NCBI GenBank assembly: GCA_013154035.1
Contig: JAADDH010000088.1
Location: 1 to 33,028 of the forward strand
DNA from: Candidatus Iainarchaeum sp.
GTDB taxonomy: Archaea; Iainarchaeota; Iainarchaeia; JAADDC01
Direction of reading: 5' to 3'
Length of the DNA stretch: 33,028 nucleotides
In this document: positions 10-33,028 of the stretch, in pieces
How positions within the stretch are numbered: the first letter of the stretch is position 1
Layout: every line of letters starts with the position of its first letter
Notes under the pieces: generated by a model
Databases searched by the model: none
What the model was told of the DNA's origin: nothing
The model's input: the letters and a program-made list of their open reading frames with translations, nothing else
Program-made: the position numbers and the translations under genes

Positions 10-89
10 CGATGCAGCATCGCAAACTCCACGAGTTTGTGTGCACGCGAACATAGTTCGCGATGGGGTGCAGGGGGCGCAGCCCCTGC
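10..89. repeat. cluster of short-loop perfect hairpins downstream of tRNA-Arg
   Basis: CGATG-CAG-CATCG (10-22), CAAACTC-CAC-GAGTTTG (23-39), CGCGAAC-ATA-GTTCGCG (46-62), GCAGGGG..CCCCTGC (70-89). Confidence 0.7.
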
Positions 90-92
90 TAG

Positions 93-167
93 CGGGCCCG
101 GGGGGATTCGAACCCCCGACCTGCGGCTTAGGAGGCCGCCGCCATATCCAGACTAGGCTACGGACCC
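93..167 (-). tRNA. tRNA-Arg (anticodon CCT)
   Basis: Minus strand folds as a cloverleaf: acceptor GGGTCCG/CGGGCCC, anticodon stem GCGGC-CTCCTAA-GCCGC (anticodon CCT), T-arm CGGGGG TTCGAAT CCCCC. Confidence 0.95.
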
Positions 168-18365: not shown

Positions 18366-19178
18366 TCACATCGCCTCCTTCAGGGCCTCCAGGGCATCCC
18401 GAGACCAGATGGTCAGACGTCCGGGATGCGCGCCGGGAGCGAGCAATTCAACGTTCAGGTTGCGAACCTCCACAACATCCACGCCGGGAAGGTTGCGGGC
18501 CGCCTGATATATGCCCTTGTTCTCCTTAACGACTATGAGTACGGATTTGGGCACCTTGTAGGCCCGACCTCTGCGCTCACCCTTGCCAGCACGGCGCCTC
18601 CTGCCCAAATACGCCCTCTCCAAATCCTTATCCACGCCGAGGGCAGCGAGAATCTTCTTCAGCTCAGAGGTCTTATTGACGGACTCTATGTCCTCGACCA
18701 CAACAATGGGCAGGTCACCGTCATACCTGTGGCCCCTGCCAATGACGTAATCCTTGATCGCAGTAGCCGCAATGGCGGAGCGCAGCGCAAGCCTCCTCTC
18801 CCTCTTGTTCACCTTCTCCCAGAGGACCTTCTCAACCTTTGGCGGGTGGGCCTTTGGACCGTGAACGGCTTCTGGGACGTTGGCTACCTGACCAGCAAGG
18901 AGATATCGCCTGTTCTTCAGGCGGGGCTTGCGAGCGGTGCCTGCGTTAATAGACTGCATGAGCTTCGGTCCGTGGCGCCTGTTACCGAAATACTCCGCCG
19001 CATAGTCACGGCCTGCCATGGGCTTAGTCCCATAGGGTTGAAGCCGGTGGGACTGAATCGCGATGACCGTCCTGCGAATGATATCCTCTCTGACAGGAGT
19101 GCTGAAAATAACGGGAAGCTCAATCTCCCCGACAACACTCCCATCAAGCGCGCGAACTGCTGCTTTCATGTTAGACAC
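18366..19178 (-). CDS. rpl4: 50S ribosomal protein L4 (uL4)
   Basis: [51 protein letters not shown]. Confidence 0.95.
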
Positions 19179-26540: not shown

Positions 26541-26598
26541 GGGGCGATGATGAGGACGGGGTGCTGAAGGTATGATGAAACCACTCTGTCCTGAGCTC
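26541..26598 (+). ncRNA. box C/D guide sRNA (candidate 1)
   Basis: C box ATGATGA (26547-26553), 10-nt guide GGACGGGGTG, D' CTGA (26564-26567), 4-nt spacer, C' ATGATGA (26572-26578), 12-nt guide AACCACTCTGTC, D CTGA (26591-26594); short terminal stem GGGC/GCTC. Confidence 0.87.
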
Positions 26599-27856
26599 AC
26601 TCCACCCACTCGTAGAACGCCCTGTATGCGCGATACGCGGACTCTAGATCCGCGATAGCAAGCACCTCTGTGGGCGCATGCATTGAAAGGACTGGAGCGC
26701 CCATATCTATGATTCTCGCGCCGCGGTGGGCGAAGTACACCGCGATTGTCCCTCCACCGCCCTTGCCGACCTTGCCCAGCGTACCGGACTGATATGGGAT
26801 CTCAGAGTCTTCAAGAACCCTGCGGACGAACGCAACGTACTCCGCACTGGCCTCACTACCATAATATTTGCCGCCAGAACCTGTATACTTGGAGATCACG
26901 ACACCTGCGCCGAGCTTAGCCGCGTTTTCCTTGTCGTAAAGGTCCGAGTACAAGGAATCGTAACCCACGGAAACGTCCGCAGAGACGAAATCGGAGTGTG
27001 CATACAGATCAAGAAGCGACTCCAGTGTTGCCGGCTTACCTTGCTTTTTCAACAGCTTGAGGAAGAACAGGTCCACGACGGTCGAGCGGGCAGACTCCGC
27101 GGTTGTGCTTCCAACCTCCTCCCGATCCACAAAGAGCGCAACAGATGTTCCTGCGTGTAAATCAGCAGAGAGCAGGGCTTGAAGCGATGCAAACACGGAG
27201 GAGCGATCGTCGTGCGCATAAGCCATAATGAACTCTCTGTGAGCACCGAAGCGCTCCGGACGTGCCATGGGAACGATCTCAAGATCTGCAGACAAAAAGT
27301 CCTGCGGATCCACGCCAAACTCATCCTTTATCTTCGTAAACACAGCATCCTTCTTGCCCAGAGCTACCAGCGGTTCCAGACGCTCAGGATCAAAAGCATC
27401 CTTCACGGTCTTGTTTCGGTACTCCTTGTCCAGATGCGGCGCGAAATCCGTGATCACGGTTGGGATGGATACAAAATACTCCTCGCCATCCACCGTAACA
27501 ACCTTGCCGCGGATCTCCAGAGGCCGTGCGAGCCAGTGGTGGAACTTAATACCTCCATAATACTGCGTCTTCAGATAGACGTAATCGTCCCGCTCCACGA
27601 AGGGGTTTGGCTTCAGATCAAGACGGGGGGCATCCACATGAGACACAACGACGCGCATGGGACCAGCAGGGTCGCCAATCACAGCCGCACCAACGAATTC
27701 CCCATGGCGCCAAAATACACGGTCACCACGGGACAAAGAGCCCACAGATTCTAGATCCACGAAGCCAGCGCCCTTCAGGGCATCAACCACGGCGCCAACT
27801 ACTTCGCCCTCGGTTTTGTTCAGCAGGAACCGCATGTAATCGTTCACGATGGCCAT
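26597..27856 (-). CDS. M18-family aminopeptidase (aspartyl aminopeptidase-like)
   Basis: VVVSHVDAPRLDLKPNPF, FVDREEVGSTTAESARS, FVSADVSVGYD, GGGGTIAVYFAHRGARIIDMGAPVLSMHAPTEV; start taken at ATG MAIVNDY (27856), ORF open to 27910. Confidence 0.92.
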   Translation of the reverse strand: MAIVNDYMRFLLNKTEGEVVGAVVDALKGAGFVDLESVGSLSRGDRVFWRHGEFVGAAVIGDPAGPMRVVVSHVDAPRLDLKPNPFVERDDYVYLKTQYYGGIKFHHWLARPLEIRGKVVTVDGEEYFVSIPTVITDFAPHLDKEYRNKTVKDAFDPERLEPLVALGKKDAVFTKIKDEFGVDPQDFLSADLEIVPMARPERFGAHREFIMAYAHDDRSSVFASLQALLSADLHAGTSVALFVDREEVGSTTAESARSTVVDLFFLKLLKKQGKPATLESLLDLYAHSDFVSADVSVGYDSLYSDLYDKENAAKLGAGVVISKYTGSGGKYYGSEASAEYVAFVRRVLEDSEIPYQSGTLGKVGKGGGGTIAVYFAHRGARIIDMGAPVLSMHAPTEVLAIADLESAYRAYRAFYEWVE

Positions 27857-27877
27857 AGTATTACCATGCGCCAAGAG

Positions 27878-27886
27878 ATTTATTAG
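27878..27886 (-). promoter_or_regulatory. TATA-like element for M18 aminopeptidase
   Basis: Minus strand CTAATAAAT about 25 nt upstream of ATG 27856. Confidence 0.5.
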
Positions 27887-27940
27887 CTCAGACGGTTTGC
27901 TTCTCATCACCAGTCAGCGGTTGTACACGTCATCATCGCC
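27885..27940 (-). ncRNA. box C/D guide sRNA (candidate 2)
   Basis: Minus strand: C box ATGATGA (27936-27930), guide CGTGTACAACCG, D' CTGA (27917-27914), 3-nt spacer CTG, C' GTGATGA (27910-27904), guide GAAGCAAACCGT, D CTGA (27891-27888); upstream TATA-like CTTATATTC near 27962-27970. Confidence 0.87.
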
Positions 27941-27999
27941 GTAAGAATCAGCAGATCAAAGAATATAAGCGTGCTGAGTGCGGGGGCATGCATTCAGAA

Positions 28000-28154
28000 C
28001 GGCTGCCATGTCAGCCGGCACCACGGAGGGTTCCTACGGAACCCTGCCACTGTGGACCTGACTAATCATAAAAGGGCCTACTAAGCGAACGAAGTGGGCA
28101 CATGCCACCACATCGCGAACTCTGTTCGCACGCACGCAAGCGGAGCTTGCGATG
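28000..28154. repeat. tandem short-loop hairpin cluster
   Basis: CGGCTG..CAGCCG (28000-28017), AGGGTTCC-TAC-GGAACCCT (28027-28045), GCGAAC-TCT-GTTCGC (28115-28129), CGCAAGC-GGA-GCTTGCG (28135-28151). Confidence 0.75.
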
Positions 28155-28192
28155 GAGCAGTTGGTGTGATGGCGGGGGCTGGGATTCGAACG

Positions 28193-28364
28193 GCCAGCTT
28201 CTCTGGCGACCCGGAGTTCCTCCGAGCGCGCCTGACGTAGTCAGTGCGCCGAACGACGGGCAGCATTCGCTAGCGCTCAGCTACCCATGGGAATATTGCA
28301 GAAATAGTGGTTGTGCGTGGGGCCGAAGCGCCCCACCCGCGACTCGCCGGCCGCGTATCGGCCG
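28193..28364. repeat. tandem short-loop hairpin cluster containing a tRNA 3'-end-like segment at its edge
   Basis: GCCAG..CTGGC (28193-28207), CGGAG-TTC-CTCCG (28212-28224), CTGAC-GTA-GTCAG (28232-28244), GGGCAGC..GCTACCC (28258-28286), GTGGGGC..GCCCCAC (28317-28336), CGGCCG..CGGCCG (28348-28364). Confidence 0.72.
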
Positions 28365-28367
28365 TAG

Positions 28368-28451
28368 TGCGGGGGCTGGGATTCGAACCCAGGCAGGCAC
28401 TAAGCCACCGGACCCTCAATCCGGCCCCTTTGTCCCCTCGGGCACCCCCGC
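28368..28451 (-). tRNA. tRNA-Leu (anticodon GAG)
   Basis: Minus strand: acceptor GCGGGGG/CCCCCGC, anticodon arm CCGGA-TTGAGGG-TCCGG, long variable arm, T-arm CTGGG TTCGAAT CCCAG. Confidence 0.95.
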
Positions 28452-28454
28452 AGC

Positions 28455-28615
28455 CGCCATCCCGGCTGGCGTGACGATGGGGCTACCGCCCCTATCACCC
28501 CGAAGAGGGTGCTTCCAGCACCCTGCAGTGGGTTGTGCGTCCGATCGTAGATCGGACCCGCGCCAGCACCTAACAAGAGCTGGAACAGAAAGCGCCCGGT
28601 GCAGAAGCACCAGGC
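28455..28615. repeat. tandem short-loop hairpin cluster upstream of tRNA-Leu
   Basis: CGCCA..TGGCG (28455-28471), GGGGC-TACC-GCCCC (28479-28492), AGGGTGCT-TCC-AGCACCCT (28506-28524), GTCCGATC-GTA-GATCGGAC (28539-28557), CCAGC..GCTGG (28563-28583), GGTGC-AGAA-GCACC (28598-28611). Confidence 0.75.
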
Positions 28616-28676: not shown

Positions 28677-31600
28677 TTAGATGAAGCGGGCAGCGAGGGC
28701 CAAGAGAACAAGGGCCACGCCCACTGCAACCACTGGATTCTCAGGCGCTGAAGACACGCCCTTGAATGCATGCACAGAGATGCTCTTCTGAACGCCCTGC
28801 CAAGTCACCGTCACAGTGTAGTAGCCGGCACCGGTAATGTCCACCTCGCAGGCCTTGTGTCCATTCTTGTCCACTGTCTTCAGTTCATACTGGGCAAGAG
28901 CAGTGGTATCATCCGTACGAATGACGTGAATCACTGCGTCGCTACATGCCAAATCCACGTACTTGCCATCAATCTCACCCTCCGCCCACACCCGGGCAGG
29001 AGCGCCGTTCTCCTTGCTAAGGATCAGTTCGTAGCTGTGACCCTCCTTCGTAGCGACGATCGTAGTGTTCTTCTCAACAACGTGGCCGTTGGTATCGCTC
29101 ACCCATACCGTGTACACGTAGTTACCTTCGCTGGGAAGGAAGACGTTGAACTCGTGCTCAAAGGCACGTCCAGACACAGGCTCGCTGTAAGATAAACCAT
29201 AGCCGTTCACGTCCACATGTGCCAGTCCGAAGTCGTCGTGCGCGCTCACAAAAATCGTGGCATAGGTACCAGCAGCCACGCTAGAAGGTGCAGATATATC
29301 CACTACGGGGGGCTGGTCCACAACGCTGACGGAAACAGACCTCTTGGCAACGTTGTGGTATGAATCTGCCGCAACAACCTCAACCACATAGGTTCCTGGT
29401 GTATTGACATCATACTTGCCGGCACACTCGGCAACGCCCGCGCTAACCGGGCAGGCGCCGAAGTATGTACCAGTTACGTAAACGTTCACGTCGCTGAGGT
29501 TCGGATCACTGACAACCGCGTGCCATTCAACCGCAGGAACGTCTGCGTCATACCACGCGTTCAGATCAATGGTTGGGGCATTAGTATCGACCACGTGCAC
29601 CTCAACTGGATGCGATTCGGTCCGCACGTTGCCGAAACTGTCGGACGCAGTTACAGTAATCTTGTGTGGGCTCGCATGTGGGAAGTAATACGTGAACTCG
29701 CGGGACCAGTAGTTCTTGTCCACGTTGGAGTCGCGGTATATCGTGTTACCATCCACGCTAACCACAACGGACTTCACCAAATAGTTGTCCGTCACGGTAA
29801 CGGAGAAGTGATACGGCTGGCCGAGGTTGGCATCGCTAGGTGCAGAGATCATAACAACAGGGGGGATCTGATCGACTGCCTTCCCAAGCGCGTACGTGCG
29901 TGCTGTGTTGCCACTTGTATCGCTGACGGCAACCATTATGTTGTACTCGCCAGGTATGCGGACGGGGATCTTCGCCGTAGCCGTGGCAGACGCCCCAGAC
30001 AGGGGCATGTGCTCGACAAAGTGCCAATCTGAATACCCCGGCCCCCGCACATACACATTGGCGTCGCGCAGGGCCACGTTGTCGCTGGCGGCAAAGCTCA
30101 CCAAGATGTTGCCAGGCACATTCACATCGCGCACGGCAGTCACGCGCACAACTGGCGGAGTACTGTCAGATGCGCGGAACGATAGCTTCCTGGAGTCGCT
30201 GGCGCCCTTTGAATCGTATACCGCAATAACCGCAACGTAGGAACCGGGCTTGGCAACGCGCAGATGCAGAACCGCCGTTGCTCTATATCCGGACAGTGGT
30301 GCAGCAGTTTCGGAAACAAGGGACCCGCTCGCGCTATAAACGTTGAGTTCCGCACGGGAGAGATCGCCGTCCCGGTCAGCAGCAGTAACATCGATATCAT
30401 ACGTACGAGACACTTCGACGCTTGGCGGGAAGCTGTACGAAACGATCTCCGGCGGGTGCTCGCGGTTGTGTACATATATCGTAGTTGTGTACGGAGCACT
30501 CCTTGCACCGCGGTCATCTATTGCAACGACGTTGAGCTTGTGTGCACCTGGGCTAATGCCGTCCCCGGGAGACTGCACTCGGATCACATGGCAGCCATTA
30601 CCATTAACCGCCTGGTAGCCCTGAGCACCACCTGCGATTGCATACACGATCCCAGACACCACGCCATCAGGATCATGGGCACAGACGTTCATCTCAAAGG
30701 GCGCATCTACATACACAGTCCCGAGAATCCTAACGGAGTCAACAACAGGTGGCTTGTTCGGCGGAAGCACCGCCGTAAACTTCCGCGATTCCGCTGTGGA
30801 AAGGCCATGAATGTCATATACGGTAACGGTCGCAGTGTGTTCACCCGCCTCGCTGACAGAAACGTCAAAAGTAACTGTACCGCCAACGGAGGGCAGGTCC
30901 TTGCTCCATCTACCCACAACGGTACCGTTCTGCTCAATCACAAGTTCTGCACGGCCGAGGTCGTTATCCACGTCGCGGGCAGACACCGTGACTTTAAACT
31001 CTCTGCCTACGTACACCTCCGGCGGCACGTTGAACGCAACGATTGCTGGAGCAGAGTACGCAACCACCACCTTCGCCGAAACCTCGCTACTCCATGCGCC
31101 GTCGTCGTCCTTCACCTTTCCGTAGACCGTAAGGGTAGTCGGGATTGCGGGTGCAGTCGCGACGAACTCTGCACAGCCCGCCGAGTCGGGGTTCTTGTAC
31201 TGCCAGTCCGAAGAACCGACCCTGGCAGCGATCTGGACGACCCTGCCATCACTATCCTTCCCACAGACCTTGAAGTCGAAGGTCTTGCCAGGGGATACCT
31301 TCGCCGGCGCAGATATCGTTGCAGTGGGCGGAACGTTTCTCTTCACTGCCTCGGTGCGATAAGTCTTTGTGAGACTCTTGCCATGCGTGTCAGATACGCG
31401 AATCACAACACGGTATTCTCCAGGTGCATCGACGGAGAAATAAAGCGTGGCTGTAGCGCGGGAGCCGGAGACCAGAGATGAATCGTGATCCACAAGATCG
31501 CCCATAGAGTTGTACACGTTGAGCTCAACGGCGTTTAGATCGCCGTCGGCGTCGTACATCGTGACCCTAACCGGAACGCGCTTGCCTACTTCGATCTGTG

Positions 31601-33028
31601 GTGGTACGAACGCTGAAAAAACGGGCGCAGAATATCGGACGTGAACGACGGCTGTGGCAATCTTGCTCCAGGCGCCGTCGTTGTCCTTTGCCTTGCCGTA
31701 AATCGTTAGGTCCGTTTCCCTGCTAGGTGCACGGTACTGGAAGTATGCGCAGCCGTTAGAATCGGGGACGTCATACTGCCAGGACTCGTCACCAACCTTG
31801 CCCGCAACCTGGACAATCTTGCCGTCACTGTCCTTACCACAGACGCGATAGCTGAACGTAGCTCCAGGAATCACAGTTGTCTGAGCTGGAATCACCACGG
31901 CGGTTGGCGGAACGTTCCTGCGGATAGCCGTGAACGTCTTGCTCGCAGTAGAACTCCATGCGCCGTCGTCGTCCTCTGCGCGTGCATAGACCGTGTGCCT
32001 ACCCGCCGTTAGCGGCGCGTAGAGAGTTATCTTCTTACACACGTCGGAGGAGTCAACAGTAACGCTCCTGTGCTCCCTGTTGTCCATCCACGCCTCTATC
32101 TTCACGACCTTGCCGTCGCTGTCCCTTGCACAGACCGTAACGGTGTAAGGAACATCCGTGTATGTAACAGAGTAACCGTCAACCTTGTAGACAACCGGCG
32201 GCTGGTTCGTCTGCTTCTGAAGGACGTGTATGGTAATCGTACCGCTGTCCTTGTAGTATGCGGCGTTTGGACCGTAATACACCCTGATGTGTGTGGTATG
32301 ATCGCCCGCTGAGTCGAACGAAACCGTGTGAGATACGGAGCAACTCGTCGATCCGTCGCAGTGATCGACGTATATACCCTTGCCGTCCACGTAGAAGACG
32401 ATGTGCTGAATGCCCGCGTCGGAACTTGCGGATGCGGTGAGCGTCACTGGATCCCCAACGTGTACAGTGGTGGACGGCTCAACACGGTAGGATATGCTCA
32501 CCGGCGGAGGAGTCGTCTCGACGGTAACAGTGACAGGATCGCTTGTCTTTGCAAGCGTCTCGCCGTTCTCCACGTAGCTCATGACCGCGTAGGCAGTATG
32601 TTCGCCAGATTGGAAGGACGTAGTGTACGAAACGCTGCAACTGCTGCCAAGATAACAATTCTGGCGCTTCCTGGTCACACCGTCAACTACGATATCTAAC
32701 GACTTGATCTCCTCCGCACTACCCTTTGCAGTAAACGTAACGCTTTCTCCCGGTGATACCTTCGTCTTGCTGGCGGATATCTGTACGGATGGTGTGATAT
32801 TGCCAGAAACATGAACGGTCACTGGAGAACTCCAAGCATCGTCCCTTGTCGCGCCATCACAGTCGTCCCATACCATCTGGGCCTGGATCGTGTGATCGCC
32901 AGGAGTATCAAATGTGTGAGTGATCGTCACGGGGCCCTTTGTGCACGTGGGGTTGTATGGAGCGCCACAGTCGAAGTTCGTGACCATCTGTCCGTCGATA
33001 TATATGCGAATCCTCGTCGCAAGGGGCT
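28677..33028 (-). CDS. very large secreted/surface protein with tandem Ig/PKD-like domains and a C-terminal membrane anchor; 5' end beyond window
   Basis: More than 1,430 aa of beta-rich repeats (GxHTVxVxVxD, DSDGKxV, paired Cys); the frame stays open through 33028 (...LATRIRIYIDGQMVTNFDCG); C-terminus NPVVAVGVALVLLALAARFI. Confidence 0.88.
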   Translation of the reverse strand, partial: PLATRIRIYIDGQMVTNFDCGAPYNPTCTKGPVTITHTFDTPGDHTIQAQMVWDDCDGATRDDAWSSPVTVHVSGNITPSVQISASKTKVSPGESVTFTAKGSAEEIKSLDIVVDGVTRKRQNCYLGSSCSVSYTTSFQSGEHTAYAVMSYVENGETLAKTSDPVTVTVETTPPPVSISYRVEPSTTVHVGDPVTLTASASSDAGIQHIVFYVDGKGIYVDHCDGSTSCSVSHTVSFDSAGDHTTHIRVYYGPNAAYYKDSGTITIHVLQKQTNQPPVVYKVDGYSVTYTDVPYTVTVCARDSDGKVVKIEAWMDNREHRSVTVDSSDVCKKITLYAPLTAGRHTVYARAEDDDGAWSSTASKTFTAIRRNVPPTAVVIPAQTTVIPGATFSYRVCGKDSDGKIVQVAGKVGDESWQYDVPDSNGCAYFQYRAPSRETDLTIYGKAKDNDGAWSKIATAVVHVRYSAPVFSAFVPPQIEVGKRVPVRVTMYDADGDLNAVELNVYNSMGDLVDHDSSLVSGSRATATLYFSVDAPGEYRVVIRVSDTHGKSLTKTYRTEAVKRNVPPTATISAPAKVSPGKTFDFKVCGKDSDGRVVQIAARVGSSDWQYKNPDSAGCAEFVATAPAIPTTLTVYGKVKDDDGAWSSEVSAKVVVAYSAPAIVAFNVPPEVYVGREFKVTVSARDVDNDLGRAELVIEQNGTVVGRWSKDLPSVGGTVTFDVSVSEAGEHTATVTVYDIHGLSTAESRKFTAVLPPNKPPVVDSVRILGTVYVDAPFEMNVCAHDPDGVVSGIVYAIAGGAQGYQAVNGNGCHVIRVQSPGDGISPGAHKLNVVAIDDRGARSAPYTTTIYVHNREHPPEIVSYSFPPSVEVSRTYDIDVTAADRDGDLSRAELNVYSASGSLVSETAAPLSGYRATAVLHLRVAKPGSYVAVIAVYDSKGASDSRKLSFRASDSTPPVVRVTAVRDVNVPGNILVSFAASDNVALRDANVYVRGPGYSDWHFVEHMPLSGASATATAKIPVRIPGEYNIMVAVSDTSGNTARTYALGKAVDQIPPVVMISAPSDANLGQPYHFSVTVTDNYLVKSVVVSVDGNTIYRDSNVDKNYWSREFTYYFPHASPHKITVTASDSFGNVRTESHPVEVHVVDTNAPTIDLNAWYDADVPAVEWHAVVSDPNLSDVNVYVTGTYFGACPVSAGVAECAGKYDVNTPGTYVVEVVAADSYHNVAKRSVSVSVVDQPPVVDISAPSSVAAGTYATIFVSAHDDFGLAHVDVNGYGLSYSEPVSGRAFEHEFNVFLPSEGNYVYTVWVSDTNGHVVEKNTTIVATKEGHSYELILSKENGAPARVWAEGEIDGKYVDLACSDAVIHVIRTDDTTALAQYELKTVDKNGHKACEVDITGAGYYTVTVTWQGVQKSISVHAFKGVSSAPENPVVAVGVALVLLALAARFI

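Follow-up and report, generated by a model that had tools for sequence, protein, structure and literature searches.

How does a module of two small hairpins come to lie behind a tRNA-Leu gene, and is it a fixed or a movable part of the genome? The question is raised by contig C83 of an archaeal genome (Candidatus Iainarchaeum sp., GenBank JAADDH010000088.1), whose 33,028 nt are referred to as the window. The genome under study (G000) comprises 1.01 Mb in 88 contigs and was compared with four sister species of the same genus (G001–G004), whose genomes are smaller (0.4–0.7 Mb), and with G005, which represents a sister genus within the same family. The host genus is placed in Candidatus Micrarchaeota in the present analysis; for part of an M18-like aminopeptidase of the window, the nearest named record is a Micrarchaeota metagenome-assembled genome (78% identity). 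Genes for tRNAs were called by ARAGORN and the window was searched against Rfam. We consider it likely that the module is a cassette inside a gene-less, GC-rich mobile hairpin chain of about 60–200 bp that invades tRNA genes within one genus, with the insertion sites, mechanism and host tolerance proposed below.

The module and the tRNA-Leu(GAG) locus

The module is found at 28111–28155 on the minus strand and reads CCATCGC-AAGC-tcc-GCTT-GCGTGCGTGC-GAAC-aga-GTTC-GCGATG (plus strand: CATCGC-GAAC-tct-GTTC-GC-acgcac-GCAAGC-gga-GCTTGC-GATGG). As the earlier note on this DNA had described, it forms two hairpins with 3-nt loops, and so does the other copy of the window at 18–66 (minus strand), which is inverted relative to it. 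This first copy lies 3' of tRNA-Arg(CCT) (92–167, minus strand, ARAGORN), the target of an element at positions 1–91 that is cut by the contig end. The folding z-scores of the two copies are −3.3 and −3.9, and none of 200 dinucleotide-preserving shuffles folds as well. The frame pattern CCATCGC..GCGATG gives 9 matches in G000 and the reversed control none. The two-hairpin module is real and goes beyond chance.

Eight of the nine pattern matches are true copies (on C3, C7, C14, C42, C77, C78 and twice on C83), and the ninth, on C39, was dismissed as a chance match. A relaxed pattern adds one further copy on C78, which brings the number in G000 to nine, and detects copies in G001 and G002; an additional BLAST match on C5 is left out of this count. 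The repeat containing the module stands at the ends of three contigs (C42, C78 and C83). Since three contigs start in the same repeat, the elements probably break the assembly. No Rfam family matches the module, a sequence search of 68 genomes from other genera finds none of the modules, and three module patterns have no match in IMG/VR, so no viral vector is seen there. Only two doubly changed base pairs can be read by eye in this module: a G-C pair of hairpin B is replaced by A-T on both sides in the C83-type copies, and a G-C pair of hairpin A likewise in the G002 copy.

All features of the locus lie on the minus strand. The intact target, tRNA-Leu(GAG), occupies 28367–28451 (85 nt; ARAGORN and Rfam RF00005, 50.3 bits). 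Behind it stand two tandem insertions of about 175 bp each, E1 (28192–28366) and E2 (28001–28171). E1, pieces of which are repeated elsewhere in the genome, opens with the terminal hairpin CGGCCG-atacg-CGGCCG (28348–28364) and closes with GCCAG-agaag-CTGGC (28193–28207) at a T-loop junction. There follows a duplicate of the 3' part of tRNA-Leu (28172–28191, GTTCGAATCCCAGCCCCCGC), which spans the T-loop to the acceptor and is 20/20 identical to, and a direct repeat with, 28369–28388. E2 holds the module and ends in the hairpin GGCTG-acatgg-CAGCC (28001–28016), again at a T-loop junction. After it comes a further, decayed duplicate of the 3' part of tRNA-Leu (27979–28000, GTTCTGAATGCATGCCCCCGCA; compare GTTCGAATCCCAGCCCCCGCA in the tRNA), which adjoins the native flank. 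The terminal hairpins of the elements read GGCCAGAGAAGCTGGCC and GGCTGACATGGCAGCC. On the 5' side of the tRNA a hairpin array (28452–28570) directly abuts the tRNA end with ..CGCCAGCCGGGATGGCGGCT and matches a stretch of C7, downstream of tRNA-Asp, at 90.9% identity. The module does not lie directly behind the tRNA-Leu gene: the partial tRNA 3'-end copy at 28172–28191 intervenes, and the module is found at 16 nt behind this copy. The duplicated tRNA ends had been missed. A T-arm had suggested a new intact tRNA at 28171–28290; this candidate was rejected and is an orphan 3' end.

The comparison of orthologous loci that the earlier note had proposed reveals an empty site in two sister species. 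In G001 and G004 an identical 85-nt tRNA-Leu is followed by about 10 nt and then by the same sR1 small RNA (sRNA) and the same M18-like peptidase, without E1 and E2. Of these anchors, the C/D box sRNA sR1 on the right-hand side lies at 27886–27940 (Rfam RF01152, 48.8 bits, gathering score 45) and the M18-like aminopeptidase, named from sequence without a family search, at 26597–27910; its orthologue in the same place in G001 and G004 shares 64–66% of its amino acids. With this site unoccupied in both species, the insertions are not a static possession of the relatives. Furthermore, tRNA-Leu of G001 is empty on its 3' side, yet carries a hairpin array at its 5' side, and tRNA-Met(CAT) is filled in G000 and empty in G001.

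Repetitive tRNA flanks are frequent in the genus. They make up 15/44 (5') and 26/43 (3') of the flanks in G000, 22/30 and 14/30 in G001, and 17/33 and 20/32 in G003; in G001 the elements mostly sit at tRNA 5' ends, in G000 at 3' ends. The values for the sister genus are 4/30 and 4/29, these few flanks include clustered tRNAs, and no element copies were seen there on reading 30 tRNA flanks.

Duplicated tRNA ends and exchangeable cassettes

The association with tRNA genes extends to the whole set of about 100 module matches, in elements that are non-coding and about 60–200 bp long. When twelve module types are pooled, 88 of 100 matches in G000 lie within 500 bp of a tRNA gene, against 3.7% of random positions. 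Of the remaining matches, ten are found no more than 300 bp from a contig end, and one stands at an orphan tRNA-Thr 3' end. All true copies of the module under study with enough flank adjoin tRNA genes. To be noted, an orphan tRNA-Thr 3' end stands beside an element end at C54:14426; this contig has no tRNA-Thr, and a partner was looked for and not found.

Two types of duplication are observed. In the 3' type the distal tRNA copy starts in the T-loop. In G000, orphan 3' ends of this kind behind elements belong to Pro, Glu, Met, Gly, Leu and Thr tRNAs, in G002 to Ser, Cys and Pro and in G003 to Gly and Glu; at tRNA-Ser(CGA) of G001 the element measures 65 bp and the duplication is perfect over 35 nt. 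In the 5' type a copy of the tRNA start (15–17 nt, reaching as far as the D-loop) comes first, then the element and then the complete tRNA, as for Arg(TCG), Arg(TCT), Thr(GGT) and Leu(CAG) in G000, Arg and Pro in G002, and Glu, Gly and Val in G003. Wherever a duplicate can be recognised, one boundary lies in a tRNA loop and the other at or slightly past the mature tRNA end; the duplicated segment measures about 15–40 nt, and one complete tRNA is kept beside the element. In each case the duplicate has the sequence of the local target tRNA; the element therefore does not bring it along. Hairpins stand at the element boundaries, the same terminal hairpins occur at T-loop and D-loop junctions alike and in both orientations, many elements have two unlike ends, and insertions can stack in tandem on one tRNA.

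Inside the elements, hairpins behave as cassettes. It had been suggested that the GAAC/GTTC arm was swapped between the two hairpins of the window's copies. This is not borne out: the copies agree in 38/48 aligned columns after reverse-complementing one of them and in 32/48 without this step, and by this alignment copy 2 is a whole-module inversion of copy 1. As the frame is nearly palindromic (CATCGC..GTGCAC..GCGATG), an inverted module mimics exchanged arms. The wider idea that cassettes are moved or replaced as units loses this piece of evidence and is upheld by others. The module is found in differing element backbones and in both orientations. In particular, the frame GCGGGT..ACGCACA holds at least five unrelated stems (CCGATC, CTGGTC, GCGGC, GGGATC and GGGGC). 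In these, 103/120 stem positions are paired, against 72 after re-dealing of the 3' halves, a count reached in 0/1000 shuffles, although related copies inflate such counts. Two more conserved frames behave likewise, and whole-stem replacement with pairing retained is also visible by eye. Cassette replacement is real: conserved frames hold unrelated, paired stems. Cassettes within an element are replaced, inverted and recombined with their base pairing retained.

The elements also affect the region upstream of the tRNAs. A TATA-like motif 15–75 nt upstream is found for only 4/54 tRNAs with an element-type 5' flank, compared with 36/52 with a unique flank; for Arg(TCG) and Arg(TCT) of G000 a TATA-like stretch is instead found upstream of the duplicated tRNA start. 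The elements displace the promoter, and such tRNAs are therefore probably transcribed through the element.

Mechanism and rival explanations

The duplications could arise by a staggered cut or a pair of nicks in the tRNA gene, which would be recognised via its invariant T-loop or D-loop sequence. A hairpin-ended element would be joined to the cut ends, and subsequent fill-in would create the tRNA-end duplication. A putative mobilising enzyme would act in trans. The inserted element would then become a leader or trailer of the pre-tRNA and be removed by RNase P or tRNase Z; hosts may tolerate the insertions because these enzymes should trim the pre-tRNA. More tentatively, the elements may represent an undescribed class: gene-less hairpin chains that a putative archaeal enzyme recognising the T-loop or D-loop would insert at either end of a tRNA gene and that pre-tRNA processing, instead of splicing, would keep harmless.

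Several points weigh against the main, mobile-element reading. No credible mobilising enzyme is found in the sister genomes among eight enzyme families searched; every genome is a fragmented assembly, 68–92% complete, so this absence is suggestive only. The length of the duplication varies between about 15 and 40 nt, unlike that of a classical transposase. Several T-loop junctions in G000 have in common an additional 'GTTCnG' foreign to the target tRNA, and an element at tRNA-Ser in G002 seems to hold part of the native flank of tRNA-Pro. The 'GTTCnG' and the travelling flank hint at copying driven by homology or template switching rather than clean cut-and-paste, and variable duplication length together with travelling flank pieces leaves a recombination or template-switch origin open.

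Among the single families, Y1_Tnp (PF01797) has no match in the five genomes of the genus, while five control genomes are positive. A RAYT/Y1-like enzyme, for which a search had been recommended, also fits poorly because tRNA ends are duplicated: Y1 transposition is not known to make a target duplication. On both grounds this candidate was rejected. In G001–G004 no match is found for tyrosine recombinases (PF00589), serine recombinases, IS110, Cas1 (PF01867) or reverse transcriptase (PF00078), the last of which is found in G000 only on C1 and C8. LAGLIDADG matches in two genomes lie in open frames of more than 1100 aa and are probably inteins, and a TnpB-type zinc ribbon has one match barely above the cut-off (in a 111-aa frame), the others being below; both candidates were set aside.

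The lack of a known mobility enzyme family in the four sister genomes would be expected if no dedicated enzyme existed and ectopic recombination or template switching between tRNA genes copied hairpin flanks and left duplicated ends. T-loop, D-loop and acceptor sequences are common to tRNA genes, and the varying duplication length, the 'GTTCnG' that travels with the element end and the tRNA-Pro flank in the G002 element agree with such copying. However, the Glu, Met, Gly, Pro, Leu and Ser targets differ in their acceptor stems, and each retains and duplicates its own sequence, which copying from a donor leaves unexplained; the insertion at tRNA-Ser(CGA) of G001 is clean, with its perfect duplication; and T-loop and D-loop junctions bear the same terminal hairpins. 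We regard this explanation as rather unlikely. Far less probable is that the elements are satellites of tyrosine-integrase elements with an attachment (att) site in the 3' half of the tRNA. Archaeal integrative elements typically show a crossover in the T-loop and tRNA 3' duplications, integrase genes are present in G000 on C76 and C20, and a tRNA-Met 3' duplicate on C79 resembles a classical att site. Yet G001–G004, where PF00589 is unmatched, bear the same kind of elements, and insertions at 5' ends, bounded by a D-loop, are at odds with this explanation. Moreover, the tRNA end found with near-identical elements differs from target to target, so it is the target rather than a fixed attP that supplies the duplicate; such target-specific duplicates already contradict the satellite reading.

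A Cas1-family integrase that inserts miniature casposons at tRNA ends would account for several features, as family 2 casposons are found in tRNA genes, carry terminal inverted repeats (TIRs), duplicate their target and can form tandem stacks (PMC6614799, PMC6563490). The casposase of A. boonei produces a duplication of 14–15 bp, which begins 8 bp downstream of TCAAATC (PMC6614799, PMC6563490), whereas the duplicates here begin in the T-loop and measure 15–40 nt. In these papers no 5'-end insertions of casposons are described. Cas1 is missing in G001–G004, and the single Cas1 of G000 adjoins a Cas2-like gene and type III-like effector genes in a CRISPR locus and does not belong to a casposon. 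This very improbable explanation is largely refuted. Finally, the hairpins could be non-mobile, conserved structured trailers or terminators that function in tRNA maturation, in line with their strength, their retained stem pairing and their location at tRNA ends. This we consider hardly credible: the orthologous tRNAs of sister species lack the elements, as does the sister genus, the empty sites contradict it, orphan tRNA fragments stand on the far side of elements, and the preferred tRNA end differs between G001 and G000.

Other features were observed in the window and elsewhere in G000. The sR1-like sRNA overlaps the start region of the M18-like peptidase open reading frame, and a second C/D box-like sRNA candidate at 26543–26596 (plus strand) scores 28.4 bits, below the gathering score. 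Upstream of tRNA-Leu, 28677–32987 (minus strand) encodes a surface-type protein of 1436 aa. It has a hydrophobic anchor at its C terminus and shows, by eye, repeated PKD-like domains; in G001, too, a divergent relative is found upstream of tRNA-Leu. Three tyrosine-integrase matches, one of them below the cut-off, lie in nearby open frames at C76:6889–10712, and another match at C20:20128–20517 stands beside a partial tRNA-Ala 3' end (C20:20915); both regions are probably larger integrated elements. A tRNA-Met 3' end is repeated 4.4 kb downstream (C79:14266 and 18671–18791), which resembles a classical integrated element. C81 and C82 end in the same sequence, behind tRNA-Thr and tRNA-Ala respectively, and a similar sequence behind tRNA-Thr on C27 and C81 forms another repeated tRNA-targeting element. 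The reverse transcriptases on C1 and C8, in frames of more than 1600 aa, and the type III-like CRISPR-Cas locus on C80 are either foreign elements or bin contamination in the larger G000.

Significance and comparison with known systems

The elements imply that tRNA genes of very reduced archaea may be parasitised wholesale at both ends by insertions of about 60–200 bp while the tRNA is kept. If an enzyme drives their mobility, its target specificity would be new, and it would be a candidate for the origin of the split, permuted and fragmented archaeal tRNA genes, a matter of long debate. The element family also offers a natural test case for the exchange of hairpin cassettes with pairing retained. 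No description of hairpin elements targeting both tRNA ends was found in the full-text literature, whose coverage leaves out most subscription journals; such dual targeting appears to be undescribed.

On the best reading, the elements are non-autonomous, modular, tRNA-gene-targeting hairpin elements, which would work like mitochondrial GC clusters or miniature inverted-repeat transposable elements (MITEs). With family 2 casposons they share the archaeal host, the tRNA 3' target, target duplication and tandem insertions, and apparently TIRs, though many elements here have two unlike ends. Unlike the elements here, casposons encode Cas1 and PolB and make 14–15 bp duplications with another geometry, whereas here 5' ends are also targeted. 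The repetitive extragenic palindromic (REP) sequences and bacterial interspersed mosaic elements (BIME) are likewise short paired hairpins, non-autonomous and modular, but the present elements differ from those mobilised with RAYT in the lack of Y1 in the genus, in their target duplications and in their strict association with tRNA genes. The insertion at tRNA-Thr(GGU) of Caldiarchaeum subterraneum has the order of the 5' type, with a tRNA 5' fragment, the insert and the full tRNA; it differs in its 1.9 kb with a gene, its restriction to tRNA-Thr and its tie to intron gain (PMC3293823). MITEs are also short and non-coding, with a target duplication and many copies, and their inverted hairpin ends are apparently matched by those elements here whose two ends are alike; by contrast, no autonomous parent or transposase is found in the present, incomplete genomes, the duplication length is variable and the target is nearly exclusively a tRNA end. 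Yeast mitochondrial GC clusters such as GC42 are short, GC-rich, palindromic, gene-less elements as well, with no enzyme known (PMC4478555). Like these clusters and the repetitive or double-hairpin elements of mitochondria, the present elements are polymorphic between relatives, and their hairpin units merge and shuffle (PMC4478555, PMC2800124). The likeness would not imply descent from mitochondrial elements, and the elements described here, unlike the clusters, sit at the ends of archaeal tRNA genes and are accompanied by tRNA duplications of 15–40 nt.
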